In this document: piece after piece, positions 4,629 through 21,923 of the stretch
Layout of the letters: each line of letters starts with the position of its first letter
How positions within the stretch are numbered: the first letter of the stretch is position 1
DNA from: a virus
IMG/VR virus record: IMGVR_UViG_3300023257_000093
Coordinates: 1-28,285 of that record
DNA: 28,285 bases
Direction: 5' to 3' (one strand)
Translations under genes and position numbers: made by a program
Notes under the pieces: generated by a model
Databases searched by the model: none
What the model was told of the DNA's origin: nothing
The model's input: the letters and a program-made list of their open reading frames with translations, nothing else

Positions 4629-5495
4629 TTAAGATGTTGTAATCTTACAGGTTGCGTCTGCCCTCAAGTACCTAACTTTAATTCTCTGTGTGATATTTGC
4701 TGCGCTCATATCATTTACAGGTAAATCAAAGTTCTGGACTGTAACAGGTCTCTTCTCAGCGATAACATATGCATGCATTTTATCAGTCACATAAGCATAA
4801 TTACTATATGCGGTTGAAGGTGCTGCATTTGTTGAAAACTTGATAACATTAAGCCCGTAGATAGTTCCTAAGAACCCTCGTTTAAGCATATCAGTATTAC
4901 CAACCTTATTTGCTTCTACAAAAGTGTCAATATTTCTTAAATCATTCAAAACTGCCATACCTACAAATAATGTAGTTGGAGTATAATCTGAATCATCTAA
5001 ATACTGCATTGCTCTAGTGATGTTCGCAATTGTAATTGCTGCACCACCTGCTACAGTATTAGTTGCACTGTTCAATGCATCCGAAATAACTAGACTTGTC
5101 TCATTTTCTGCAAATCGTTTCCCTGCTGTCTTTATGCTGTGCTGAAGTAAGTTCCATTTGCTATCCTCAAGCATTTCTGCTGTAATTCTAATTGCAACTC
5201 CATACTTGATTGGTTTCATATTGAACGAAGAGTATCCTGGTTGGTCGATTGTGCTTTCTGCTCCCTCGCCAACAACTCTAATATCCATTGTATTAGGGTC
5301 TACTGTGTCTACATCAATACTAGAACCCGGAATGTCTGCTGGTCCGAATAATAATGCTGCCTCACTTCTGGGTATAAGATTTTTATCTACTTCTTCAATC
5401 AAAGTATCATGAATCTTTCGTGGTATCAAAAGTTGACCTTCTGTACCAAGTCCTGTGCTCAACAACTCTTTAACATATTTCATTTTTTCTACCAT
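4629..5495 (-). CDS. Major capsid protein, HK97 fold
   Basis: A 288-residue protein from the ATG at 5495, which lies 1 nt beyond the stop of the decoration gene. A longer frame to 5567 would run into that gene and is rejected. Features fit phage HK97-type capsid proteins: an early 'EGQLLIPRKIHDTLIEEVDKN' arm, the E-loop-like segment VVGEGAESTIDQPGYSSF, 'KPIKYGVAIRITAEMLEDSKW' as spine-helix entry, a peptide 'PTTLFVGMAVLNDLRN' typical of the A domain, and a final beta region. It directly follows protease and decoration genes, the standard order. Length is in the normal range for capsid proteins. Confidence 0.88.
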   Translation of the reverse strand: MVEKMKYVKELLSTGLGTEGQLLIPRKIHDTLIEEVDKNLIPRSEAALLFGPADIPGSSIDVDTVDPNTMDIRVVGEGAESTIDQPGYSSFNMKPIKYGVAIRITAEMLEDSKWNLLQHSIKTAGKRFAENETSLVISDALNSATNTVAGGAAITIANITRAMQYLDDSDYTPTTLFVGMAVLNDLRNIDTFVEANKVGNTDMLKRGFLGTIYGLNVIKFSTNAAPSTAYSNYAYVTDKMHAYVIAEKRPVTVQNFDLPVNDMSAANITQRIKVRYLRADATCKITTS

Positions 5496-5496
5496 T

Positions 5497-5949
5497 TTAA
5501 CCGTGAATATCGACAACAACAAAATCGTCCTCGCTTCCGCAAGTCCATGCTCGTCCAATTGCTCCATAAGCTCCTGATGTAGTAATTGCCAAATCGCTTA
5601 CATTACTTTCACCTGCCGCTCCTACTTGAACTCCTGCCAATACATTAGCTCCACTTGCCATTAAAAGGAATGAACCTCTTGTTGCAAATGATAAAGGTGC
5701 TCCACTTGCTGCATCGTGTAGTGCTACACCAACAAAATTTGGTGATACGGTACCATCTGTTAAATCAACAATGTGATATAATTCAATATCACTTGATGCA
5801 AAACTTGCTGCCCCGCTTGTAACAACACCTGCTGCTCCTGACGCTCCTAATAACTGACCTCCACTAATAACTTCTTTAGCATATCCTGTTATAATCCTAG
5901 GTGTACCCCCATCTGTAAGATTTTGGTATCCTAGTGGATTAACTGCCAT
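5497..5949 (-). CDS. Capsid decoration protein (DUF2190-like)
   Basis: A 150-residue, Ala/Gly/Ser-rich protein beginning MAVNPLGYQNLTDGGTPRIITGYAKE. The pattern 'isgGqllgasga', 'vGVALhDAasGaplsfaTRGsFll' and 'aGvqVgaa' is that of small beta-barrel decoration proteins of the DUF2190 / lambda gpD-like kind, which stabilise expanded capsids. It lies between protease and major capsid genes, as usual. The upstream GAAAGGAGGTTATAAG is a strong ribosome-binding site, consistent with abundant expression. Confidence 0.75.
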   Translation of the reverse strand: MAVNPLGYQNLTDGGTPRIITGYAKEVISGGQLLGASGAAGVVTSGAASFASSDIELYHIVDLTDGTVSPNFVGVALHDAASGAPLSFATRGSFLLMASGANVLAGVQVGAAGESNVSDLAITTSGAYGAIGRAWTCGSEDDFVVVDIHG

Positions 5950-5982: not shown

Positions 5983-6972
5983 TTATCTGCATAGTCTATT
6001 GAATTTGCCAGTATCGTTTGAATAGTCTCTGTATATCTGAAAACCTTTTCCTATCTCAGCTCTTTCCAAAATAAGACCTTCCTCAACAACTTCGGCTTCG
6101 TCTTCATCATTTCCAACTTCACCTTGTGTATCGTCTTCTACTGGTGTTTTTGGAATCTCATCTTCCTCTACCTCTGCAGATGGAGCTGGAGTTTCTTCTT
6201 GTTCAGTAACTTTCTTTGCTAATGCGCCTACTGCTGCTGTTAAAGCCGCAATTCTTTTGTCTGTCTCTGTCATATCTATCTTAACAGTCTCAACATTAAT
6301 AGCTTTAGCTTTTTCTTCTGTAGGTGCTACAACTTCCTCTTCCTGTGGCATTTCCTTTTCCGCTTCTTCCATATTATCCTCCTTTTCAATATTTAGTTCA
6401 GTATCACTTTCATCACTTGTTAAATCTACTTCTTCCCCATTCATTTGCATCTCTTTTAAATTAAAGGACTCACTTAATGCATTCGCCAAATTTGCTCCTG
6501 GGTCTCCAGGAATTGCTACCAAGCTAATCTCCATTCCTTCCAAACCAATTGCAGTTATAGTACCATCTTTTTTATTCTCAACTAAATCTTTAACACCTGC
6601 TCCAATACTAACATCAGTAATTCGACCATCATTAATCATTTCTTTTATTTTGGAGTCCATAATTCTTGCTTCAAATTCTATAGATTTTTTAAATGAATCA
6701 AATTGAACATTCTCAGTAGTCCTTCCCACAATATCTTTTATTGCACCTGAGTGGTCTGTCATAATAGGCTTATTTCTAAAAGAAGGAGCTGCAGATTCTA
6801 ATTCAGATGCAATATAAGTAATTCCATTTCGGGTTGTGGTTTCATTAATAGCCGTACCTCTAATAATAAAATCATTTCCAGACATAACTGCTTCGCTAAT
6901 AGGAGTATAAAACTCAATTAATTTCCAATTCTTTTTTGGAGTTGCAGATTTTTTAGTAATTATGTTTACCAT
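5983..6972 (-). CDS. Prohead protease fused to scaffold domain
   Basis: A 329-residue protein. The N-terminal ~160 residues are a HK97-type (U35-like) serine protease: His74 in MTDHSG followed by IVGRT, Ser122 in TDVSIGAG, and an acidic residue in GMEISLVAIP (E148) complete the expected catalytic pattern. Residues ~175-300 are strongly acidic, coiled-coil prone and Glu/Pro-rich, typical of the scaffold/delta domain removed during maturation. It is the first gene after promoter element P1 (7004-7037), with the TATA box 43 nt upstream of the ATG, so it heads the capsid operon. Function is well supported by motif and position. Confidence 0.9.
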   Translation of the reverse strand: MVNIITKKSATPKKNWKLIEFYTPISEAVMSGNDFIIRGTAINETTTRNGITYIASELESAAPSFRNKPIMTDHSGAIKDIVGRTTENVQFDSFKKSIEFEARIMDSKIKEMINDGRITDVSIGAGVKDLVENKKDGTITAIGLEGMEISLVAIPGDPGANLANALSESFNLKEMQMNGEEVDLTSDESDTELNIEKEDNMEEAEKEMPQEEEVVAPTEEKAKAINVETVKIDMTETDKRIAALTAAVGALAKKVTEQEETPAPSAEVEEDEIPKTPVEDDTQGEVGNDEDEAEVVEEGLILERAEIGKGFQIYRDYSNDTGKFNRLCR

Positions 6973-7003: not shown

Positions 7004-7037
7004 ATCTTATATAAACACATAGAATTAACTTATATAA
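7004..7037 (-). promoter_or_regulatory. Late-type promoter element P1 (capsid operon)
   Basis: On the minus strand this reads TTATATAA, G, TTAATTCTATG, TG, then the TATA box TTTATATAA and GAT. It is nearly identical to elements at 11113-11145 and 14352-14384. The first T of the TATA box (7015) is 43 nt from the protease ATG. The 88-nt gap around it otherwise has no gene. Confidence 0.75.
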
Positions 7038-7060
7038 GAGGAAATATTCAAAAAATGCCA

Positions 7061-7978
7061 TTAACAGTGCTCATGGAACACAACATTCCAATCTAAACTC
7101 AATGTTCTTGCTGCAATATTATCAGTTTTTATCAAATATGAAGACCCATTACATAAAATTGCTTGACCGCCATGTACTCCAGTACCCACTGGTGCCGATA
7201 CAAATTTAATAGATGTTCCTGAGCCACCCAAATAAATAGCAGTCTGAAGTACTGTTCCACTTGTCCCAATTGTTGGATTAGTCCATATAGAACAATTTGA
7301 AATATTTGTAAAACATCTATTCTCATTAAAAATAGAATTTTGTACTCCACTATTAGTAACTGCAACATTTTCCATTATTGTCATTATTGCATCACCATCT
7401 GTTCTTGAATCATAGTTCATGTGAACATCACAACTACCACAATTAAATAATAAACATGTGCTTCCAGCATCTGCCATCTTATAATATACAGAACCACACA
7501 AATATTCTTGTCCCATAATCTGTCTATCATGGTCTTTTGGGAATACAACTAATCCACTGCCTCTAGTTTTTACTCCTTGTAGAGTAAGATTATTTTCAAC
7601 AACTACACTACCAGGATATGTTATAGGATAGTTGCTAATAGCAATATTTCCACTTGTTACATAAGTATCTCCAACATTAATAACACCACTGACCGCCCAA
7701 GGATTAGTTCCTTGATATACATAACTTCCTGCATATAAATTATCAACTGATATTATTCCAGAAGTAACATAAGTATTGCCAGATGCTTGATACATCGTTC
7801 CACTTTGAATATAAATAGAATCGACATGAGCACTAACACTTCCAATCACAATGCTTCCAGAAATATTAGCATTAACAGTACCAGAAATAGGCACGGCTCC
7901 TTCAGAAGTAATATCCATCTGATACCGATAATCATCTGCATCAACTGAGCTTCCCAAAATAGTCGTTTGACCATTCAT
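7061..7978 (-). CDS. Repetitive beta-structured virion protein
   Basis: A 305-residue protein. Residues ~25-135 consist of short beta repeats with Ser-Gly turns and two near-identical TYVTSG units (NTYVTSGIIS and DTYVTSGNIA), as expected for a beta-helix or fibre shaft. The C-terminal ~150 residues contain several cysteines (LCGSVYYK, LLFNCGSCDVH, NISNCSIW) and hydrophobic strands resembling phage head-fibre or spike domains. It is the last gene before promoter P1. Probably an exposed capsid or fibre protein; no family recognised. Confidence 0.6.
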   Translation of the reverse strand: MNGQTTILGSSVDADDYRYQMDITSEGAVPISGTVNANISGSIVIGSVSAHVDSIYIQSGTMYQASGNTYVTSGIISVDNLYAGSYVYQGTNPWAVSGVINVGDTYVTSGNIAISNYPITYPGSVVVENNLTLQGVKTRGSGLVVFPKDHDRQIMGQEYLCGSVYYKMADAGSTCLLFNCGSCDVHMNYDSRTDGDAIMTIMENVAVTNSGVQNSIFNENRCFTNISNCSIWTNPTIGTSGTVLQTAIYLGGSGTSIKFVSAPVGTGVHGGQAILCNGSSYLIKTDNIAARTLSLDWNVVFHEHC

Positions 7979-7979
7979 A

Positions 7980-8288
7980 TTAACAGTACCTCAGTTTAAA
8001 TGACACTTCAGCATTAAGTTGACCTTTAATTTCAACCCTTAAACTATCATTAAGTATCCATTTTGTAGGAGCATCTCTAAAATTAACTCCTTCACAATCA
8101 ACAACTCCTAATCTGACAGGAATATAATTTTGTCCTTGAATACTATTAATTGCAAACACTAAAATGTCTGTATCTCCTAAAAATATGTTTACTGCAATTT
8201 GTTTATCTGATAAAATAAGAATTCCTTCTAATTCACCGTTTATTTTTTGGGTAACATAGGTTGCTTTACCAGAACTAACAGTATTCAT
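7980..8288 (-). CDS. Virion-region protein, probably the C-terminal part of a -1 frameshift fusion
   Basis: A 102-residue frame from an ATG at 8288, with beta-rich sequence (ILILSDKQIAVNIFLGDTDILVFAI). This ATG has no ribosome-binding site, unlike most neighbours. The frame stays open upstream to 8384 without any start codon and encodes sensible acidic sequence (KEEIEESIEVKVTETPDEQ), overlapping the lysine-rich end of the gene at 8345-8545. The simplest reading is a single ~188-residue product made by a -1 shift near 8373-8386, or a missing A in the assembly. Function unknown; probably structural. Confidence 0.6.
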   Translation of the reverse strand: MNTVSSGKATYVTQKINGELEGILILSDKQIAVNIFLGDTDILVFAINSIQGQNYIPVRLGVVDCEGVNFRDAPTKWILNDSLRVEIKGQLNAEVSFKLRYC

Positions 8289-8344
8289 ACTAAATGATAC
8301 ATCTTTTATTCTTTCCTCTTGCTCATCAGGAGTTTCAGTAACCT

Positions 8345-8545
8345 TTACTTCAATACTTTCTTCAATTTCTTCTTTTTCGATTTTTTATTCTCCTTCTCTT
8401 TAATATCAGTAGAAATTATTATTTCTTTGATGCCATGCTCAACAATTGGACCTACAACTTTGTCAGGGATAACTCTTTGGACTTTACCACCTACTATATC
8501 CCAATGCTCATCTTTTCTATTTCTCATTATGTCTAGTTTTTTCAT
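8345..8545 (-). CDS. Small basic-tailed protein; N-terminal part of a probable frameshift fusion
   Basis: A 66-residue protein beginning MKKLDIMRNRKDEHWDIV and containing KVQRVIPDKVVGPIVEHGIKEIIIS. It has a strong ribosome-binding site (AAAGGGAGG). The zero-frame end is an abnormal run of lysines (KKSKKKKLKKVLK) encoded by A-rich repeats, while the -1 frame at the same place is open and continues into the 7980-8288 protein. The annotated zero-frame stop may therefore be used only by a fraction of ribosomes, or be an artefact. Unknown function. Confidence 0.6.
   Translation of the reverse strand: MKKLDIMRNRKDEHWDIVGGKVQRVIPDKVVGPIVEHGIKEIIISTDIKEKENKKSKKKKLKKVLK
8369..8387 (-). other. Candidate -1 frameshift site (two A runs)
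   Basis: On the coding (minus) strand, runs of six A (8381-8386) and five A (8373-8377) lie within 14 nt. The heptamer G-AAA-AAG in the zero frame resembles, but is weaker than, the canonical A-AAA-AAG slip site. The TAA that closes the -1 frame (8385-8387) lies immediately upstream, so any shift must occur after it and before the zero-frame stop at 8345. Confidence 0.45.
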
Positions 8546-8863
8546 TTAATTACCTCCCTTTAAATTTATAAATTCTAAATGTTGTCTTTGTCTTCTTGTA
8601 GATGCCCTATTTCCTCTTTTGGTAACTGGTTCATCATCTTCTCCTTCAATATCAGCTCTAGTTCCAAACAATTCATTTTCAGTTCCTTGAGTTAAGGCAT
8701 TATTACCTTTTCCACTTCCAGAATAATCTGACCACCCACCAATCACAACCACATCTTCATTATCTAATGTATCATTACCAGAATTACATTCATGAACAAA
8801 ATCTTCACAATGAGGGTCTACAATATATCGCTGTTGACATCTTGGACAAATCTTAACGACCAT
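8546..8863 (-). CDS. Zinc-ribbon protein of the portal/capsid operon
   Basis: A 105-residue protein with CPRC at residues 6-9 and a second Cys/His cluster (HCEDFVHEC, 18-26), followed by a conserved-looking acidic centre (TLDNEDVVVIGGWSDYSGSG) and a basic tail (RGNRASTRRQRQH). The pattern resembles small zinc-ribbon proteins next to portal genes in uncultivated archaeal and environmental tailed viruses (recollection, not searched). The start overlaps the previous gene's stop by 11 nt. A packaging, capsid-assembly or DNA-binding role is possible. Confidence 0.65.
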   Translation of the reverse strand: MVVKICPRCQQRYIVDPHCEDFVHECNSGNDTLDNEDVVVIGGWSDYSGSGKGNNALTQGTENELFGTRADIEGEDDEPVTKRGNRASTRRQRQHLEFINLKGGN

Positions 8864-9014
8864 TTTTTAACACTTCCTGAAGTTTATTAAATTGTTCTTC
8901 CTTAATTTTTCTATCATATCTAGTTAAACACCCACCACAAATCCATTCATTCCCAAATAATACTAATGCGGGATTAGTACATCCTTCAATTGCGCAAATT
9001 GGTCTGTCTGCCAT
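8853..9014 (-). CDS. Small zinc-finger protein (53 aa)
   Basis: Starts at an ATG 1 nt beyond the portal stop and ends overlapping the next start by 11 nt. The sequence begins MADRPICAIEGCTNPALV and has C7 and C12 followed by CGGC (about residues 32-35), a treble-clef-like four-Cys pattern, then a helical C-terminus (KEEQFNKLQEVLKN). It is too short for most gene finders but fits the operon exactly. Function unknown. Confidence 0.65.
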   Translation of the reverse strand: MADRPICAIEGCTNPALVLFGNEWICGGCLTRYDRKIKEEQFNKLQEVLKNGR

Positions 9015-9015
9015 T

Positions 9016-10959
9016 TTATTTTAATTCAGAAACAGGAACAACCATACATCTACACATAGGGTGTACAGGTATTGCCGGATGGTCATCAATCTCATAAACA
9101 TTTCCATCTAAACTGGCACATATAGGGCATGTCCTAGTCCCAGCAGATGCAACCCATCGGATTTTCTTAACTCCTCCTTCTTTAAAATGATTAATAGCTC
9201 CAGCATTAGCCGTTCTTGTAACCTCTGTCCTTACTAATAATGCCCCTCTTGTTTCTTTACTTCTAACCAAAACTGATTTACCATCCTTTTTAACAATTTG
9301 ACCATCCTCCATCTTTAACAAATCTTTTAAGCCAACTTTAGAATCTACTTTACTTATCATATCATTAATGCTATCACCTTTCTTAAATCCATTCTTTAAA
9401 ATCCCTTTAAATGTGGTTACTTGTGATTCAGTCAATTTACCTGCAGTAGCTTCCAATACAGTTGACGCTTTAATCAATTCAAATGTATCTTCATCAATAA
9501 AAGACTCAATACTTTTTACATATTCTTTATAATTAAATCCTAGCCATTCGTGAATCTGTTTATATTTATTTGTATCCTCTATAACAGTAAGACTTTCTCT
9601 TGTTGGTCGTTTAGCTGGAGCAGGTTTAGCATTTTGTCCAGGAATTAATGGTTGCGGCCTTTCTTGTTCCCTTTTTCTTTCTTCTTCTTTCTGCTTATCT
9701 TCTTCCCCGCTCAATTTTATATATTCATCCTCATCTAATTCAAGTGTTTTAACCAAATCTACCTCTAACAACTTAACTAAACTCATTGATATAGTAGGAG
9801 TCTTCATAATATTTGCTAATCTATCAATCCTCTCATATCTTTCTGCATTTGACGGTCTTCCCCAATTAAATTCTACATGAGCATCAATTTTGTTATAATC
9901 TAAAACTCTTTTGTATATTTTTTGCTCAACAATCTTCTCTATCTCTGCTTGAAAAGAAGTAATTCGTCTCTCAAAGCCATCCATTTGTACTTTAGCAATC
10001 CCTTCATTAACATTTGCTGTTCCCATAAGCACAGATGGTACTTGGAATGTATACATCAGCATTTCTTTATCATATTTCAACACCTCATTAAACTTCTCAC
10101 CAATATTCCCAAAATCTACAGTTTTAATTTCAGTCAAAGCATCTGTTACCCATTCATGCTTATTAGTCAACCAGCTTAAATCTCCTCCCCATTTTGTAAT
10201 AGCGGCGGCAGATGGTTTCAAATATCTTCCACCAACAATTCCTCCTAACTTAATGTGGTATGGACTATTTGCTTTTCTATTCATCAACATATGTAAATCT
10301 TTTTCATTCTGCAACAAATTATTAATTGTGTTTATAGCAGGATACATAATTCCTAGTCCATAAGGCATATCACCAATCTTATTAAATGAAAGATGTGCTA
10401 TCTGGTATGGTTCAAATGAAATTATCTTTTCTTTAGCAAACTTATCAAATCCACCTCTATATTGATTAAAACCTTTGACACTTCCTTTCTTATCTCGCTT
10501 CACATACATATATTTTGAATCTAAAATCTTTAATCCTTTTGGTGGTTCATCTTTTTTTCCGCCAATCTCTAAAAAACCATTTTTTACAAGAGCCTCTTTA
10601 ATCCATCCTCTTAATACTGTATCTATTTCAACATCCTGATTAAATGTTTCAATAATTGCTAATGCTTTTTCATCATCACTACTCACCCAATATCCAGGAC
10701 CCATAATGTAATCAACATACTTATCAACAACACCTGTAGAAAATCCAAAATTCTTATAAAGCCCTTCTGTTATTGCAAAATCAAATGGATGTTCTTCTCC
10801 TAGCTCAACAGGAAACTTAATTGTATTAGATTTGACTTCTCCTTTAAAATTTGGCTTATCAGATGTTGTAGTATCCAATTTGTTAGTAATAACTTGTGCA
10901 TCATACTCAAAAATATCTTCGCTAATCTTTCTCATTCCAAAAAATTCTTTTATTCCCAT
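9016..10959 (-). CDS. Portal protein fused to MuF-type head morphogenesis domain
   Basis: A 647-residue protein. Residues ~1-400 are a portal: the 'NLLQNEKDLHMLMNRKANSPYHIKLGG' helix, the wing/stem segment around 'EKFNEVLKYDKEMLMYTFQVPSVLMGTANVNEG', and 'ERRITSFQAEIEKIVEQ' are typical. A proline- and charge-rich linker (~430-460) leads to a MuF/SPP1-gp7-like domain ending with the Cys/His cluster CPICASLDGNVYEIDDHP...HPMCRCM (~611-640). Such fusions of portal and minor head protein place an injected or processed domain at the vertex. It follows the 40-residue gene with a 1-nt gap and has no ribosome-binding site of its own, so it is probably coupled. Confidence 0.88.
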   Translation of the reverse strand: MGIKEFFGMRKISEDIFEYDAQVITNKLDTTTSDKPNFKGEVKSNTIKFPVELGEEHPFDFAITEGLYKNFGFSTGVVDKYVDYIMGPGYWVSSDDEKALAIIETFNQDVEIDTVLRGWIKEALVKNGFLEIGGKKDEPPKGLKILDSKYMYVKRDKKGSVKGFNQYRGGFDKFAKEKIISFEPYQIAHLSFNKIGDMPYGLGIMYPAINTINNLLQNEKDLHMLMNRKANSPYHIKLGGIVGGRYLKPSAAAITKWGGDLSWLTNKHEWVTDALTEIKTVDFGNIGEKFNEVLKYDKEMLMYTFQVPSVLMGTANVNEGIAKVQMDGFERRITSFQAEIEKIVEQKIYKRVLDYNKIDAHVEFNWGRPSNAERYERIDRLANIMKTPTISMSLVKLLEVDLVKTLELDEDEYIKLSGEEDKQKEEERKREQERPQPLIPGQNAKPAPAKRPTRESLTVIEDTNKYKQIHEWLGFNYKEYVKSIESFIDEDTFELIKASTVLEATAGKLTESQVTTFKGILKNGFKKGDSINDMISKVDSKVGLKDLLKMEDGQIVKKDGKSVLVRSKETRGALLVRTEVTRTANAGAINHFKEGGVKKIRWVASAGTRTCPICASLDGNVYEIDDHPAIPVHPMCRCMVVPVSELK

Positions 10960-10960
10960 T

Positions 10961-11083
10961 TTATTTATTTGGTAACAATCGTTTTACAATGTCATCATAT
11001 GTTTCTCTACTATAAATCCGACAACCATCCAGGAGTAATTTAGTTTCTTCTTTCAATGCAATTTTTGGGTCTTGCTTTACCAT
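10961..11083 (-). CDS. 40-residue VapB/DUF7557-like small protein
   Basis: The sequence starts MVKQDPKIALKEETKLLLDG and ends RETYDDIVKRLLPNK. The 'T..LLD..ri..RETYDDiv.rL' pattern is typical of small archaeal antitoxin-like / ribbon-helix-helix-like proteins (the DUF7557 kind in haloarchaea). It is the first gene after promoter element P2 and immediately precedes the portal gene, so it would be made at the same time as head proteins. Either an autoregulator or a remnant of a DNA-binding protein; no toxin partner is seen. Confidence 0.6.
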   Translation of the reverse strand: MVKQDPKIALKEETKLLLDGCRIYSRETYDDIVKRLLPNK

Positions 11084-11112
11084 TATAATCTAATATAATA
11101 TAATATATTAGC

Positions 11113-11145
11113 ATCTTTATAAAAACATAGAATTAAATTATATAA
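11113..11145 (-). promoter_or_regulatory. Late-type promoter element P2 (portal operon)
   Basis: Minus-strand reading: TTATATAA, T, TTAATTCTATG, TT, TTTATAAAGAT. It shares the full TTAATTCTATG core and both AT boxes with P1 and P3. The TATA box starts 40 nt from the ATG at 11083. It lies in the 69-nt gap downstream of the terminase gene, so portal transcription can start independently of terminase. Confidence 0.75.
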
Positions 11146-11152
11146 AAACGAT

Positions 11153-12520
11153 TTACATTATAAAACTCTCATACTCTTCAGTCTCTTCTTCTTTCAACCA
11201 CAAACAAGCCAATGCCAAAGCGTCTACATAATCGTCATGATACTTATCGCCATCAGGATGATGTATCTTAATCGTCTTATTTGGCATTCTCTCATATCGC
11301 AATTCCATCATCTCCCTTAACAATATCTTATTATCTGGTAATATTAAAGTTGGAGTTTCTATCTTCTCTTTACCAGAATAGGTTACCTTCCTTTTCTGTA
11401 ACCACATCTTCAAATTACTATACATATCCATCTTGCTCACCGTACTAAACCTAATATCCTCAACCTTGTCATAACCAATCTCCATCCCTATCCAATCAGC
11501 CGGTCCTTCTCCTAATCCCGTCTTATCAATATACAACTTCTCCAAATTATACTTTCTATCAATATCTTGCAATAAAACAACAAGTTCCCTTGGTCTATTC
11601 TTATCTAAATAAAATATTTCAATAACACCATACTTCTGCCTCATAGAATCAATCTCCAATACCACACAGACGCTTTTATCTTCCCCCATACCAGCACAAT
11701 CAACACCAGCGACATATCTTTTCTTTGGATGTGGTAAGCCATGGTCACAATCTTTCTGAACACAAAACATAACATCATCCATATCAAAATAACAATCCGT
11801 ATTACTTGTATACTTCCCAAAAATCTCTGCTTGTACATACAAACTGTCTTTACCCCACTCCAAAATGTCTTTCTCAATCTCTTTCTTACCCTCATCAGTA
11901 ATATACGGATTATCCAAATAACAATAATTAAAACTAGCCCAATCTTCATCATTTGCTAAACCTCTTTTCCAGAACTCCCAAACAAAGTTCCTCCTCCAAG
12001 GAGTTGTAGTAATCCACAAAGGAGCACCAGTATCATATATCAAAGGTCTAATAGCATTCATTGCTTCTTCTTTAATAAACTCACCCTCATCTAGAAATAC
12101 TCTATCATATGCCTCACCTCTCAAACTATCCGGATTATCAGCACTACCAAAATCAACAATACACTCACTCTTAAATACAATTTGGGGATGTGGTGATTTA
12201 AGAGTCTTTTCAATATCATCATCCACCTTTGCAATTTGCATCAATTCAATCATTTTCTTAAAAACAATAATTGCTTGCTTATAGGTAGGAGCTATAACAA
12301 TTTGTTTTCGATAAATATTCAGTACAGCTCCTCTAATCAATTCAGCAGCAATCATTTGTGACTTACCAGCTCTTCTTCCACAAACAATCACTTTATTCTT
12401 TTTGGGGTTTAATAGAACTTCCTCTTGTTTCTTATGTGGAATTTGATTAAGATAACCTACTTGAAATCCAACAGGATTCTCAAAGTCTTCCACACTTAAT
12501 TCAATTTGCTCATTTACCAT
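11153..12520 (-). CDS. terL: Terminase large subunit
   Basis: A 455-residue packaging motor. The ATPase has Walker A CGRRAGKS (47-54), Walker B VFLDEGEF (D144, E145) and a coupling-motif-like TTTPW (171-175). The RNase H-like nuclease has its first Asp in AGVDCAGMGEDKS (D274) and a C-terminal acidic motif in DDYVDALALACLW (D433). Length and order are normal. The start overlaps the preceding zinc-protein stop by 7 nt (ATGGTAA). Drives cutting and ATP-powered packaging of DNA through the portal encoded downstream. Confidence 0.95.
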   Translation of the reverse strand: MVNEQIELSVEDFENPVGFQVGYLNQIPHKKQEEVLLNPKKNKVIVCGRRAGKSQMIAAELIRGAVLNIYRKQIVIAPTYKQAIIVFKKMIELMQIAKVDDDIEKTLKSPHPQIVFKSECIVDFGSADNPDSLRGEAYDRVFLDEGEFIKEEAMNAIRPLIYDTGAPLWITTTPWRRNFVWEFWKRGLANDEDWASFNYCYLDNPYITDEGKKEIEKDILEWGKDSLYVQAEIFGKYTSNTDCYFDMDDVMFCVQKDCDHGLPHPKKRYVAGVDCAGMGEDKSVCVVLEIDSMRQKYGVIEIFYLDKNRPRELVVLLQDIDRKYNLEKLYIDKTGLGEGPADWIGMEIGYDKVEDIRFSTVSKMDMYSNLKMWLQKRKVTYSGKEKIETPTLILPDNKILLREMMELRYERMPNKTIKIHHPDGDKYHDDYVDALALACLWLKEEETEEYESFIM

Positions 12521-12642
12521 GTTACTTCATTTAATGTTTTCTTAAACATCTTCCTACATTTCTTACAAAAAAAGAAATCAACAAATTCGTATACGCCATG
12601 GTCATTTATCATTACCTCATATAACTCATGGTCACATTCCAT
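12514..12642 (-). CDS. 42-residue zinc-ribbon protein between HNH and TerL
   Basis: Begins MECDHELYEVMINDHGVYEF and ends in W-stop. C3 and H5 near the N-terminus plus CKKC at 26-29 form a plausible zinc site. It overlaps the HNH stop by 11 nt and the terminase start by 7 nt, so the three are a coupled block. Possibly a packaging accessory; no family recognised. Confidence 0.6.
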   Translation of the reverse strand: MECDHELYEVMINDHGVYEFVDFFFCKKCRKMFKKTLNEVTW

Positions 12643-12883
12643 AATCGTCATAACCATCCATACCATCTTTATTGCCATGTCTCTCTTTATGACAATTAGT
12701 ACACAATGCTACAACATCAATATCCAATTCCTCACTTCCCAAATTATCGTAATTCTCATGGTGTAGTTGTGTGGCTTTGTCTCCACAATCGGCACATACA
12801 CCACCGGCGTCTTCCATTAATTCTTTTCGTCTTTCTCTCCAATCGTCTGACATTAAGTATTCTCTATAGTTATCAATTTTCAT
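12632..12883 (-). CDS. HNH endonuclease, packaging-associated
   Basis: An 83-residue HNH nuclease with structural cysteines CADC (30-33), the catalytic HH (41-42) in QLHHENYDNLG, and CTNCHKERHG (61-70) completing the zinc site and second histidine. Small HNH proteins encoded next to terminase assist genome cleavage by TerL in many phages (cos/pac processing). It overlaps the candidate small terminase gene by 11 nt and is followed by TerL, so the same role is likely here. Confidence 0.88.
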   Translation of the reverse strand: MKIDNYREYLMSDDWRERRKELMEDAGGVCADCGDKATQLHHENYDNLGSEELDIDVVALCTNCHKERHGNKDGMDGYDDYGM

Positions 12884-13286
12884 CTTTTACCACCTCAACT
12901 TCTTTTATTTCTTTAACAGCGAGCTGGTCCCTCTTCCAATTCTTCAATCTCTCAATAACAGCGTCGGCGGTAACATCAATATTAAGATTTACACTCTTTT
13001 GAACTACAGGATATAAATATTGCATAAACTGCAACATTCTATTCTGCATATTATTCAAATCTCTAATGCTTTCAGATTTTAACTTAACTGGATTACCTTT
13101 ATTGAGCTTTTCATCAGTCCTTAAAATCTTTTTAAAAAGTGTCATACACTCTTCTAGCTCTTCAATACATTTTTCTCTAGTCCAGACTCTCTTCCTAGGA
13201 ACTCCCTTAGCCATAGCTCTATACCTATCATCAACCTCTTTCGGTCTACTGCCAAACCCGCGTTTACCAAAATTTTTGTCTCCCAT
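12873..13286 (-). CDS. Candidate small terminase subunit
   Basis: A 137-residue, basic, mostly helical protein. It has an Arg/Lys/Gly-rich N-terminus (GKRGFGSRPKEVDDRYRAMAKGVPRKR), then helices with coiled-coil character (CIEELEECMTLFKKIL; IRDLNNMQNRMLQFMQYLY) and a charged tail. Size, charge, helical content and position immediately upstream of HNH-TerL match small terminases, which bind the packaging site and oligomerise. No recognisable HTH was read with confidence. The nearest ribosome-binding site lies more than 30 nt upstream. Confidence 0.5.
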   Translation of the reverse strand: MGDKNFGKRGFGSRPKEVDDRYRAMAKGVPRKRVWTREKCIEELEECMTLFKKILRTDEKLNKGNPVKLKSESIRDLNNMQNRMLQFMQYLYPVVQKSVNLNIDVTADAVIERLKNWKRDQLAVKEIKEVEVVKDEN

Positions 13287-13318
13287 TGTTGTTAAATTAT
13301 TGTTACATAACTATCTAA

Positions 13319-13795
13319 CTATTCCTCCTTATCCTTAGTTTTCTTTTCAAATCTCTCCTTATAAGCTTCCAAAGGAATGAATACGCTACAACCATGTTGT
13401 CTTTCTGTACAAACATACTTCACAGTATGACCAACCAAAACTCCTGTTCTTGTGTTATTCACGTTCTGAATTTCAATCTCTTCGTCATCTCCTTCAATTG
13501 TGAATCGTTTCTTGTCACCATACTTTTTCAAATCTCCAAATTCAACTTTTGAAATATCAGATTGTCTTACATATCCAAATTTTCTTTGACTTTCTTTCTC
13601 AATTGCTTCCAATCTGTCATTGAAATCTATCTTTGCACATTGTGCATCAAAAGGTTCGTGATTTTTTGTAAACTCATGATTAACTGTTGCTAACTCTTTC
13701 AAAAACATCATATTAAGTGAACTCGCACCTAATTGTTTGTAGTCTTGCATCTCTTCATTCGTTGGAACTCTACTAATTCCAATACTATCTGCCAT
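13319..13795 (-). CDS. Hypothetical protein with C-terminal Cys/His segment
   Basis: A 158-residue protein (starts MADSIGISRVPTNEEMQD) with a strong ribosome-binding site (GAAAGGAGGTAATAATTAAG). The centre is charged and helical (DFNDRLEAIEKESQRKFG), followed by an acidic strand region (RFTIEGDDEEIEIQN) and the segment VKYVCTERQHGCSVFIPLEAY, whose C-x5-C with an intervening His could bind metal or sit in a small beta domain. It opens the packaging block. Unrecognised. Confidence 0.65.
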   Translation of the reverse strand: MADSIGISRVPTNEEMQDYKQLGASSLNMMFLKELATVNHEFTKNHEPFDAQCAKIDFNDRLEAIEKESQRKFGYVRQSDISKVEFGDLKKYGDKKRFTIEGDDEEIEIQNVNNTRTGVLVGHTVKYVCTERQHGCSVFIPLEAYKERFEKKTKDKEE

Positions 13796-13803
13796 CTTAA
13801 TTA

Positions 13804-13890
13804 TTACCTCCTTTCATGTTTGTTAATATATTTATCAGCTTTTTCATTTAAATTGCTTACAACAGTGTCTATGCCTGTGAAACCACACAT
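13804..13890 (-). CDS. Possible 28-residue ORF (weak)
   Basis: From an ATG at 13890 (MCGFTGIDTVVSNLNEKADKY, then basic residues). A TTG four codons earlier would overlap the previous gene's TAG. There is no good ribosome-binding site. It fills the only gap in this part of the operon, but evidence for translation is weak. Confidence 0.25.
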   Translation of the reverse strand: MCGFTGIDTVVSNLNEKADKYINKHERR

Positions 13891-13894
13891 AATA

Positions 13895-14188
13895 CTAGTC
13901 AACCATGCTGGTTTTATTCTCAATAATCTTAACACCTTCAACCAATTGCTTTTTAGTAATTTTGATAATCGTTTCAAGTTCAATAACTTCAGCCTTAAAA
14001 TCTTTATTCTGCTTAACATATCCTCTTTGTTTTTCTAAATAATTACTATATAACATCTTCTCAATCATAAAATCATTATATTCAATCATCAATTTCATAT
14101 GACTCAATTCTTCTTCTCTTCCTACAAGATTGGCTTCAGTAAACTTTCTTTCCTTTTCATCAAATTGTCTAAATTTTTCTTTGCTCAT
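13895..14188 (-). CDS. Coiled-coil protein, unknown
   Basis: A 97-residue, highly charged protein (start MSKEKFRQFDEKERKF), predicted almost wholly helical with heptad-like stretches (LSHMKLMIEYNDFMIEKMLY; FKAEVIELETIIKITKKQL). It has the strong ribosome-binding site AAAAGGAGG, 9 nt upstream. An overlapping frame at 13804-14019 lacks one and is rejected. It lies 4 nt downstream of the ribbon-helix-helix gene. Role unknown. Confidence 0.65.
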   Translation of the reverse strand: MSKEKFRQFDEKERKFTEANLVGREEELSHMKLMIEYNDFMIEKMLYSNYLEKQRGYVKQNKDFKAEVIELETIIKITKKQLVEGVKIIENKTSMVD

Positions 14189-14192
14189 AATT

Positions 14193-14333
14193 TTAACCTC
14201 CTTTTAATTCTTTCTTAAATTTAATATATTCATCTAATCCATTTCTTACAAATTTTGAAAAGTTAAATGACTTTGTTTGGTCTTTCAAAAAATCTTCTTG
14301 GTCTTCTCTTATCTGCAAATTCTTTTGTATCAT
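14193..14333 (-). CDS. Ribbon-helix-helix (CopG/Arc-like) DNA-binding protein
   Basis: A 46-residue protein from the ATG at 14333 (MIQKNLQIREDQEDFLKDQ). A short strand (QKNLQIRE), a first helix (DQEDFLKDQ) and a second helix (NFSKFVRNGLDEYIKF) with the 'fnfSkfvR.gLdeyi' signature are typical RHH dimerising DNA-binding proteins. The longer frame to 14387 would begin inside the promoter and is rejected. The TATA box of P3 starts exactly 29 nt upstream of this ATG, indicating a leaderless transcript. It is a good candidate for a regulator of one of the two promoter families. Confidence 0.75.
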   Translation of the reverse strand: MIQKNLQIREDQEDFLKDQTKSFNFSKFVRNGLDEYIKFKKELKGG

Positions 14334-14351
14334 ATTAATTACAATAAAAGA

Positions 14352-14384
14352 TTCTTTATAAACACATAGAATTAATTTATATAA
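14352..14384 (-). promoter_or_regulatory. Late-type promoter element P3 (RHH gene / packaging operon)
   Basis: Minus-strand reading: TTATATAA, A, TTAATTCTATG, TG, TTTATAAAGAA. It matches P1 and P2 almost base for base. The TATA box starts at 14362, 29 nt from the ATG at 14333. In archaea transcription starts about 25-30 nt downstream of the TATA box, so the start codon is at or near the transcript 5' end. Confidence 0.75.
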
Positions 14385-14689: not shown

Positions 14690-14745
14690 TATTTAAATAC
14701 TTATATACTCAAACATATATATTCAAATTTATATATATTTATATA
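14690..14745. promoter_or_regulatory. Divergent early-type promoter pair (C- and C+)
   Basis: Leftward: ATATATGTTTGA (14709-14720 on the minus strand), 11-nt spacer, then TTTAAATA (14690-14697). Rightward: a weaker ATATATATTCAA (14715-14726), 11-nt spacer, TTTATATA (14738-14745), exactly 29 nt before the ATG at 14767. The leftward arm points into the non-coding repeat region, with no start codon until 14333, so it may make a leader or non-coding RNA. Confidence 0.6.
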
Positions 14746-14766
14746 CTAAAATATATTAATATAATC

Positions 14767-15662: not shown

Positions 15663-15743
15663 GCGAGAGTAGTGGTAGTTTGGTTTAACACGCTTGGTAC
15701 TGCAGTAACCCAGGAAACGCAGGTTCAAATCCTGCCTCTCGCT
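15663..15743 (+). tRNA. tRNA-Cys-like (GCA) with irregular anticodon arm
   Basis: The acceptor stem is a perfect 7 bp (GCGAGAG / CTCTCGC). The T-arm is perfect (GCAGG-TTCAAAT-CCTGC). The D-arm has GTG/CAC with GG in the loop. The discriminator base is T, a cysteine identity element, and the loop holds CTGCAGT (U33, anticodon GCA, G37). The anticodon stem is abnormal: the best 5-bp pairing (CTTGG / CCAGG) leaves a 12-nt loop, while a 7-nt loop leaves two mismatches. It may be a divergent functional viral tRNA or a decaying one. Confidence 0.65.
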
Positions 15744-16740: not shown

Positions 16741-16773
16741 TAAAAAATTTTATTTTTTTATTTTTTTATTTTG
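16741..16773 (+). terminator. Oligo-T terminator between convergent genes
   Basis: AAAAAATTTTATTTTTTTA followed by a further T7 run, starting 2 nt after the membrane-protein stop. Archaeal RNA polymerase terminates on such T tracts. The 3' end of the converging gene lies inside it. A near-identical tract occurs at 20034-20065. Confidence 0.65.
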
Positions 16774-16885
16774 TTTTAAATAATTTCCTATCTCCAAATT
16801 CAGAGACTTTTCCTTCATTCCATTTATTTATAGGTCGTAGATATCCTACTACTCTACTCCATATTTCACATTTAGTTCTTTCCAT
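16766..16885 (-). CDS. 39-residue NrdD-C-terminus-like micro-protein
   Basis: Begins MERTKCEIWSRVVGYLRPIN, continuing KWNEGKVSEFGDRKLF. The run 'CE.wsRVvGYlRPi..wNeGK..EF.dRk.f' is the signature of the C-terminal region of anaerobic ribonucleotide reductase (NrdD). Here the whole protein is just that segment, without the active-site barrel and with only one Cys. It has a strong AAAGGAGGG site and lies 10 nt downstream of the helicase. It may modulate the host reductase or be a domesticated fragment. Confidence 0.65.
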   Translation of the reverse strand: MERTKCEIWSRVVGYLRPINKWNEGKVSEFGDRKLFKTK

Positions 16886-18283: not shown

Positions 18284-18339
18284 TATTTAAATACATATAT
18301 ACTGCAACATATATGTTAGACAATATAAGTGTTTAAATA
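18284..18339. promoter_or_regulatory. Divergent early-type promoter pair (A- and A+)
   Basis: Centred on a perfect 12-bp palindrome AACATATATGTT (18306-18317). Rightward: ATATATGTTAGA (18309-18320), 11-nt spacer, TTTAAATA (18332-18339), 29 nt before the ATG at 18361, so leaderless. Leftward: ATATATGTTGCA (18303-18314 on minus), 11-nt spacer, TTTAAATA (18284-18291), 46 nt from the helicase start. One bound dimer could control helicase and ssDNA-binding genes together. Confidence 0.75.
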
Positions 18340-18360
18340 ATAATTTAATTATTATATTTT

Positions 18361-18606
18361 ATGAATACAAAAGAGGATAGACAAACGATAATACAGGAAT
18401 TTGAGACAAATCAGGTTGGTCTTAAAGCAGAAGCCTACAATATTTTAAAAGCAATAAAGAGGCAATTAATCAAAAAGCATAAAAGAAATTTTACATTTTC
18501 TGATGCTATTATTGAATTAAAAAATAAAAGGAAAGGAACTAATATTGAATTTACTCAAGAAGAGGTAATTCAAATAAAAACCAAATTGAAAGGAGGTAAT
18601 AAATAA
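18361..18606 (+). CDS. Small RHH/VapB-like protein
   Basis: Eighty-one residues. The centre 'VGLKAEAYNILKAIKRQLIKKHKRNFTFSDAI' has the strand-helix-helix pattern of archaeal VapB-like DNA-binding proteins, with a long basic insertion, followed by a lysine-rich tail. It is the first gene after promoter A+ with a leaderless start. Autoregulation of the 18306 palindrome is plausible. No toxin partner is seen. Confidence 0.6.
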   Translation: MNTKEDRQTIIQEFETNQVGLKAEAYNILKAIKRQLIKKHKRNFTFSDAIIELKNKRKGTNIEFTQEEVIQIKTKLKGGNK

Positions 18607-20033: not shown

Positions 20034-20065
20034 AAAAAAATTTATTTTTTTTATTTTTAATTTTA
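20034..20065 (+). terminator. Oligo-T terminator
   Basis: AAAAAAATTTATTTTTTTTA followed by further T-rich sequence, 8 nt after the micro-protein stop. Like the tract at 16741 it fits archaeal intrinsic termination. The next gene starts 31 nt later without a recognisable early-type promoter, so some read-through is likely. Confidence 0.6.
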
Positions 20066-20095
20066 CTCAAAAAAAGGAAACAAAGAAAAAACAAA

Positions 20096-21696: not shown

Positions 21697-21815
21697 CCCC
21701 CACATGAGAGATTTGATAGCTCAAATGGTCTAGAGCACTTCACACCTAATGAAGATGTTGTCGGTTCAAATCCGACTCAAGTAACCTAAAATGATAAAAA
21801 TTTTAAAAGTGGGGG
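21697..21815 (+). repeat. Inverted repeat enclosing the tRNA-Arg-like gene
   Basis: CCCCCAC (21697-21703) and GTGGGGG (21809-21815) are perfect complements, both far more GC-rich than their surroundings and lying 7-26 nt outside the tRNA ends. In a transcript they would close a stem around the tRNA, as processing stems do. No gene is encoded between 21657 and 21923; this gap holds the inverted repeat, the tRNA and promoter B. Confidence 0.55.
21710..21784 (+). tRNA. tRNA-Arg-like (CCT) with non-canonical position 33
   Basis: The D-arm is GCTC/GAGC with GG in the loop. The anticodon stem is a perfect 5 bp (CTTCA / TGAAG) around a 7-nt loop CACCTAA, giving anticodon CCT (reads AGG). The T-arm is perfect (GTCGG-TTCAAAT-CCGAC). 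The acceptor stem GATTTGA / TCAAGTA has one mismatch (G1:A72) and one wobble. Position 33 is A instead of the nearly universal U, which could impair normal decoding. Discriminator A. Confidence 0.7.
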
Positions 21816-21845: not shown

Positions 21846-21896
21846 TCTAACATATATAATGAAATATATATGTTAGAGATAATAAACCTTTAAATA
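21846..21896 (+). promoter_or_regulatory. Early-type promoter B with 13-bp inverted repeat
   Basis: ATATATGTTAGA (21866-21877), 11-nt spacer, TTTAAATA (21889-21896), with the ATG of the phosphoribosyltransferase 35 nt from the TATA start. An inverted copy TCTAACATATAT lies at 21846-21857 with no TATA box on its far side, so this is an operator pair with one active promoter. Drives the PCNA-PolB operon. Confidence 0.75.
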
Positions 21897-21923
21897 ATAA
21901 AGACAATTAATAAAATAAAAGAG

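Follow-up and report, generated by a model that had tools for sequence, protein, structure and literature searches.

The stretch of DNA analyzed here (the window) is a virus record of 28,285 bases in its own right. Its structural and packaging genes are arranged in leftward operons (Table 1), and a sequence scan located three leftward-strand copies of the element TTATATAAnTTAATTCTATGTnTTTATAwA, at positions 7006 to 7037, 11114 to 11145, and 14353 to 14384. When aligned, the copies read TTATATAAGTTAATTCTATGTGTTTATATAAG, TTATATAATTTAATTCTATGTTTTTATAAAGA, and TTATATAAATTAATTCTATGTGTTTATAAAGA, with 2, 0, and 0 mismatches, respectively, to the 32-column consensus. A preliminary description of this DNA had reported three minus-strand copies upstream of the protease/capsid, portal, and RHH/packaging operons; the scan recovered them at those places, and the gene names proved right as well (gene starts at 6972, 11083, and 14333). 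The claim that rightward genes lack the element also held, as no copy was found before them. The assignment to leftward operons has to be narrowed: the structural and packaging operons do run leftward, but the leftward D5-type primase gene (start 18245) has no copy and instead carries the other element of the preliminary description, TCTAACATATATGTTGC. The element therefore tracks gene class and not direction.

Table 1. Promoter elements and associated genes in the window, and hairpin leaders in related viruses
Feature	Position	Strand	Remarks
Upstream element copy 1, TTATATAAGTTA	7026..7037	-	Protease/capsid operon; same position before protease genes in relatives
Upstream element copy 2, TTATATAATTTA	11134..11145	-	Portal operon
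Upstream element copy 3, TTATATAAATTA	14373..14384	-	RHH/packaging operon
Clade-specific extension TTAATTCTATG, copy 1	7018..7028	-	Overlaps the 12-mer; confined to the closest clade
Clade-specific extension TTAATTCTATG, copy 2	11126..11136	-	Sequence scan
Clade-specific extension TTAATTCTATG, copy 3	14365..14375	-	Sequence scan
TATA box TTTATATA, copy 1	7008..7015	-	+22 from element; conserved spacing
TATA box TTTATAAA, copy 2	11116..11123	-	Sequence; conserved spacing
TATA box TTTATAAA, copy 3	14355..14362	-	Sequence; conserved spacing
Protease gene (phrog_4523, major head and protease protein)	5983..6972	-	First gene under copy 1
Major capsid protein (HK97-type, PF05065)	4629..5567	-	Same operon as protease, copy 1
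40-aa ORF	10961-11083	-	Between copy 2 and portal gene
Portal/Mu F-like fusion	9016..10959	-	Main gene under copy 2
46-aa RHH-like protein	14193..14333	-	Candidate regulator; first gene under copy 3; TerS/TerL further on
Terminase large subunit	11153..12520	-	Copy 3 operon
Tandem-hairpin leaders	L168:6577-6622, L116:3940-3982, L113:16377-16421, ~40 further relatives		Left of window position 1

A scan of the whole window, which the preliminary description had proposed as a check, found the full element at these three places only, every other site on either strand having at least 10 mismatches to the 32-column consensus. Ten dinucleotide shuffles of the window yielded no comparable three-copy family, and in the real window only this family and the other one previously described reached three-copy quality. 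The exact 11-mer TTAATTCTATG also occurred at three places only, all of them element copies; at up to 2 mismatches, 34 sites were found and 34.4 were expected in the window. Because the short 11-mer is at chance level, significance rests on the full two-part element. We rejected TTAATTCTATG alone as the core motif for this reason and because its middle part is unconserved outside the near clade. The first 8 bp of the upstream element TTATATAAnTTA, TTATATAA, form a perfect palindrome, as expected for a dimeric binder.

The other promoter family (window positions 14699 to 14749, 18293 to 18343, and 21850 to 21900) is centred on (CT)AACATATATGTTAG and serves replication genes. Its site at 18293 is apparently bidirectional, facing the leftward D5 primase and a rightward 81-aa ORF (18361 to 18606, plus strand). 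This ORF, which has a weak VapB-antitoxin-like match, heads the rightward operon under the other element, much as the RHH-like gene does under the late one; the long relatives have no orthologue of it. Elsewhere in the window, tRNA-Arg(CCT) was called at 21710 to 21786, and a possible second tRNA gene with GCGAGAG...CTCTCGC ends, a T-arm, and perhaps an intron lies at 15668 to 15743 (plus strand), where ARAGORN made no call. Intergenic T-rich TTTTTTATTTTT-like runs (16746 to 16776 and 20038 to 20068) recur in many relatives (23 of 34 after dereplication) and are probably archaeal terminators.

Relatives were gathered by pattern scan and by TerL search, which gave near-identical as well as diverged contigs; members of the TerL-selected set are 46 to 100% identical. 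A scan of all relatives showed conservation of TTATATAAnTTA, with a TATA box after it, in viruses with TerL identities as low as about 50%. The conserved core put forward in the preliminary description is therefore shared across the group as TTATATAAnTTA plus a TATA box at +22, but the middle TTCTATG that it had stressed is confined to the window's closest clade. The recurrence of TTATATAAnTTA, unchanged, at operon heads across relatives agrees with the earlier argument that conservation goes far beyond the needs of a TATA box. Conservation in related viruses, a further check proposed earlier, was evident in 22 of the 26 TerL-chosen relatives, and in every record all copies of the bipartite motif lay on one strand, that of TerL; the reversed-pattern control gave 0 matches in the same 26. 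Four long relatives (49 to 66 kb) had 3 or 4 copies each, on the late strand only. Column counts used copies picked by the same pattern and are by themselves no proof of invariance. In a second set, selected by capsid, there were 40 exact copies on the late strand, 0 on the opposite strand, and 0 in the control. The exact 12-mer reached capsid relatives of roughly at least 72% identity, and in several more distant ones a related TTATATAAT core occupied the corresponding position ahead of a TATA-like box. The distant TerL relatives L054-L100, used as a negative set, gave no matches in 528 kb. Pattern matches in L011, L013-L015, L019, and L022 were rejected, as they lacked the upstream part and lay in other sequence that has no family genes.

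For the distribution over gene classes, we considered TerL-fetched loci only and scored an element with at most 1 mismatch within 160 bases upstream of a gene; the motif-fetched loci L115-L220 were excluded from these counts and from the spacing frequencies. The element stood upstream of the portal gene in 22 of 29 cases, of the protease gene in 9 of 10, and of the RHH gene in 15 of 16, a flank so AT rich that shuffled regions match at this threshold in 14% of cases. Several of the portal misses came from the window's clade, where short ORFs intervene and the element sits further up. In the same TerL-selected set, the exact element was found before no early gene and, apart from one terS region, before no internal late gene. 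Related viruses have the element at their structural operons and lack it at early genes, which bears out the earlier proposal of a distinct promoter specific to the structural and packaging operons. We infer the late timing of this class, and with it the early/late switch proposed earlier, from gene content; with that qualification, the element is a real, nonrandom, and biologically meaningful signal, most plausibly a late-class promoter common to the virus group.

The layout downstream of the element is equally regular. The TerL-selected set contained 61 unique late-strand copies; in 46 of them a TATA box (no more than 1 mismatch to TTTWWAAA) started at +22, and in 19 an ATG (the first of an ORF of at least 40 codons) lay at exactly +51, a clear mode; none of the 10 opposite-strand copies had a TATA box at +22. 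In the window, the ATG of copy 3 (14333) is at exactly +51, and those of copies 1 and 2 are at +65 and +62. The 8-bp TATA box lies about 22 to 30 bp upstream of the predicted start, as in archaeal TATA/TFB promoters, and the window copies have the same layout. Given the usual archaeal spacing, with a TATA box at +22 transcription would start at the ATG or immediately before it; many late mRNAs thus look leaderless, and the mRNA from window copy 3 is predicted to be. No conserved purine-rich BRE was found in the relatives' copies, in which the six bases preceding the TATA box are variable and AT rich. BRE strength varies among archaeal promoters. The missing conserved BRE would fit an activator-dependent promoter and would weaken the case only for a core promoter that is strong on its own.

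In relatives, a fourth copy of the element precedes a gene of about 154 codons with a leader of about 43 bases. The first hairpin of this leader begins near the predicted start and the second adjoins the start codon, both with the loop AAGCGA. Their stems covary: across 28 distinct leaders, 94.8% of cells pair, compared with 58.8% in shuffles, 100 cells are changed on both sides, compared with 34, and the covariation score is 0.87 versus 0.20; sliding the partner abolished the signal. A covariance model found the leader in further relatives, some with a diverged promoter element, and found none in the window, which ends before the fourth-operon gene. One leader was compared with Rfam in a small scan, which returned no significant match. 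The tandem hairpins look like a translational operator, and because the leader starts near the predicted +1, it provides independent support for the promoter.

The best candidate for a recogniser of the element is the 46-residue RHH-like protein, a putative binder. A profile search identified about 20 distinct orthologues in relatives, and in most of these the element precedes the gene's own start. In the AF2 monomer (pLDDT 91), an extended N-terminus is joined to two helices; together with the alignment, this model fits an extended-helix-helix arrangement, but DSSP assigned no strand in the monomer. Searches of Pfam, of PDB sequences, and with Foldseek returned no match, and cellular RHH_1 proteins gave a weak profile match, in register. 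An RHH strand variant (NLQI versus CITI) seemingly correlates with the TTCTATG extension, which could reflect a single ancestral change. Counting against the candidate, the RHH gene is itself a late-operon gene, which is unusual for a factor required before late genes.

A capsid search of cellular genomes returned one contig, from a Candidatus Pacearchaeota MAG, at 60% identity, and a TerL search of about 85,000 cellular genomes returned no match. This MAG contig, which lies outside the exact-element clade, suggests a DPANN host for the virus group. The contig itself (L295) carries, beside the capsid gene, RtcB-like, CCA-transferase-like, and peptidyl-tRNA-hydrolase-like ORFs next to tRNA-like sequences recognized by eye, a gene set that suggests tRNA repair functions in the L295 virus.

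Taken together, we consider it likely that the element is a class-specific late promoter of DPANN tailed viruses, read by a virus-encoded, most likely RHH-like, activator. The promoter would have two parts, the invariant TTATATAAnTTA and a TATA box 22 bp, or about two helical turns, downstream. Host TBP, TFB, and RNA polymerase would start transcription about 51 bp past the element, in many cases at the A of the initiation codon. TTATATAAnTTA would be recognised by a DNA-binding protein of the virus, which would thereby couple the head-protease/capsid, portal, and packaging operons with the fourth operon outside the window. Most likely the recogniser would be the small RHH-like protein, whose place as the first gene in the packaging operon would imply autoregulation. 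In this model, promoter function, late timing, binding by the RHH-like protein, activation, and a DPANN host are all predictions. A bolder version, which we put forward tentatively and regard as rather doubtful, is that the RHH-like protein (46 to 70 residues) is the late-transcription activator, that from its site at TTATATAAnTTA it brings the initiation machinery of the host to every late operon, its own among them, in a positive feedback, and that it defines leaderless late mRNAs across the DPANN virus group, with the fourth operon further controlled by the tandem-hairpin RNA operator. If true, the late-gene switch would come from one tiny protein.

Activation is favoured over repression because of where the site lies: archaeal activators bind upstream of BRE/TATA, the position that TTATATAAnTTA occupies. 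Repressor sites usually overlap the BRE, TATA box, or start, whereas the conserved site here leaves the TATA box and the start site free, and contact with the initiation complex would account better for the fixed 22-bp spacing to the TATA box. We therefore think it unlikely that the element is a repressor operator through which an autoregulated RHH-like protein holds the structural operons off or shuts them down, in the way that SvtR of SIRV1 represses both its own and a structural gene, even though archaeal-virus RHH regulators are mostly autorepressors (PMC5569661) and the candidate RHH-like gene lies directly under the element. An improbable alternative is that a host-encoded factor reads the upstream element and that the virus borrowed a host promoter type. 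Transcription must be by the host polymerase, we found no TFIIB homologue in the window or in four long relatives, and no second regulator was obvious among the conserved early proteins of G007, which belong to sugar-metabolism, primase, nuclease, and methyltransferase families. However, the strict motif had 1 match in 378 genomes of the Pacearchaeota class, compared with 6 for the reversed control, and the looser motif had a single match in the linked MAG, on the capsid-bearing viral contig itself. The element is thus not a host promoter signal in that class, and its recogniser is probably virus encoded.

That the palindrome TTATATAA is TATA-like raises the idea of tandem TATA boxes with two starts per promoter. 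TATA boxes tolerate variation, however, and TTATATAAnTTA, including its TTA end, stays the same at operon heads of viruses with about 50% TerL identity, in contrast to the variable downstream box; moreover, the downstream box alone agrees with the distance to the start codon and with the point where the hairpin leader begins, which makes a second TATA box highly improbable. Sites for replication, packaging, or RNA processing would also be repeated and intergenic in a virus genome, but the strict late-strand bias, the restriction to operon heads, and the fixed distance to the TATA box and start codons leave such a nonpromoter role extremely improbable.

The early strand of G007 (L105, L106; 27-57 kb) also carries glycosyltransferases, epimerases, cupins, and a radical SAM protein, conserved in other long relatives, a cluster that makes up a sugar-modification pathway.

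Little is known about how viruses of DPANN archaea control transcription, and for most of these viruses no host is in culture. With so exact and so conserved a promoter signal, late operons can be recognized from nothing but sequence, and uncultured viral contigs become easier to group. The element also separates virus-specific from host control and points to one small protein, giving a testable model of how an archaeal virus without its own TFB runs its late gene class on the host machinery.

A narrow search of the open-licence literature found no description of a group-wide late element. Among named phages, the closest TerL is that of Halogranum tailed virus 1 (27% identity), an archaeal tailed virus with a related terminase; the window's capsid had no match in the phage collection. 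GvpE is an archaeal activator with an upstream activator site, and Ptr2 is likewise an archaeal activator (PMC5569661). Like the sites of Ptr2 and GvpE, the element is short and lies upstream of BRE/TATA at a fixed spacing, but those systems are cellular and involve different sequences and protein families. Rudiviruses such as SIRV2 have a conserved early-gene regulatory sequence (PMC11065993), which, like the present element, is conserved around the core promoter and marks one temporal gene class in an archaeal virus, a class that here is predicted. The rudivirus sequence belongs to early anti-defence genes and is centred on a strong BRE/TATA, whereas the present promoter marks structural and packaging operons, has no conserved BRE, and includes a palindromic element further upstream. 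Also comparable are SvtR, AvtR, and F55, small RHH regulators that bind near their own promoters in Sulfolobus and Acidianus viruses, with AvtR activating as well as repressing (PMC5569661). The likeness lies in a small RHH-type viral protein, a gene near the sites, and short sites near archaeal TATA promoters. Experiments on individual viruses or genera mapped their sites, many of which overlap the promoter; here, in contrast, one invariant, putative binding site lies at a fixed spacing before all structural operons of a whole virus group.
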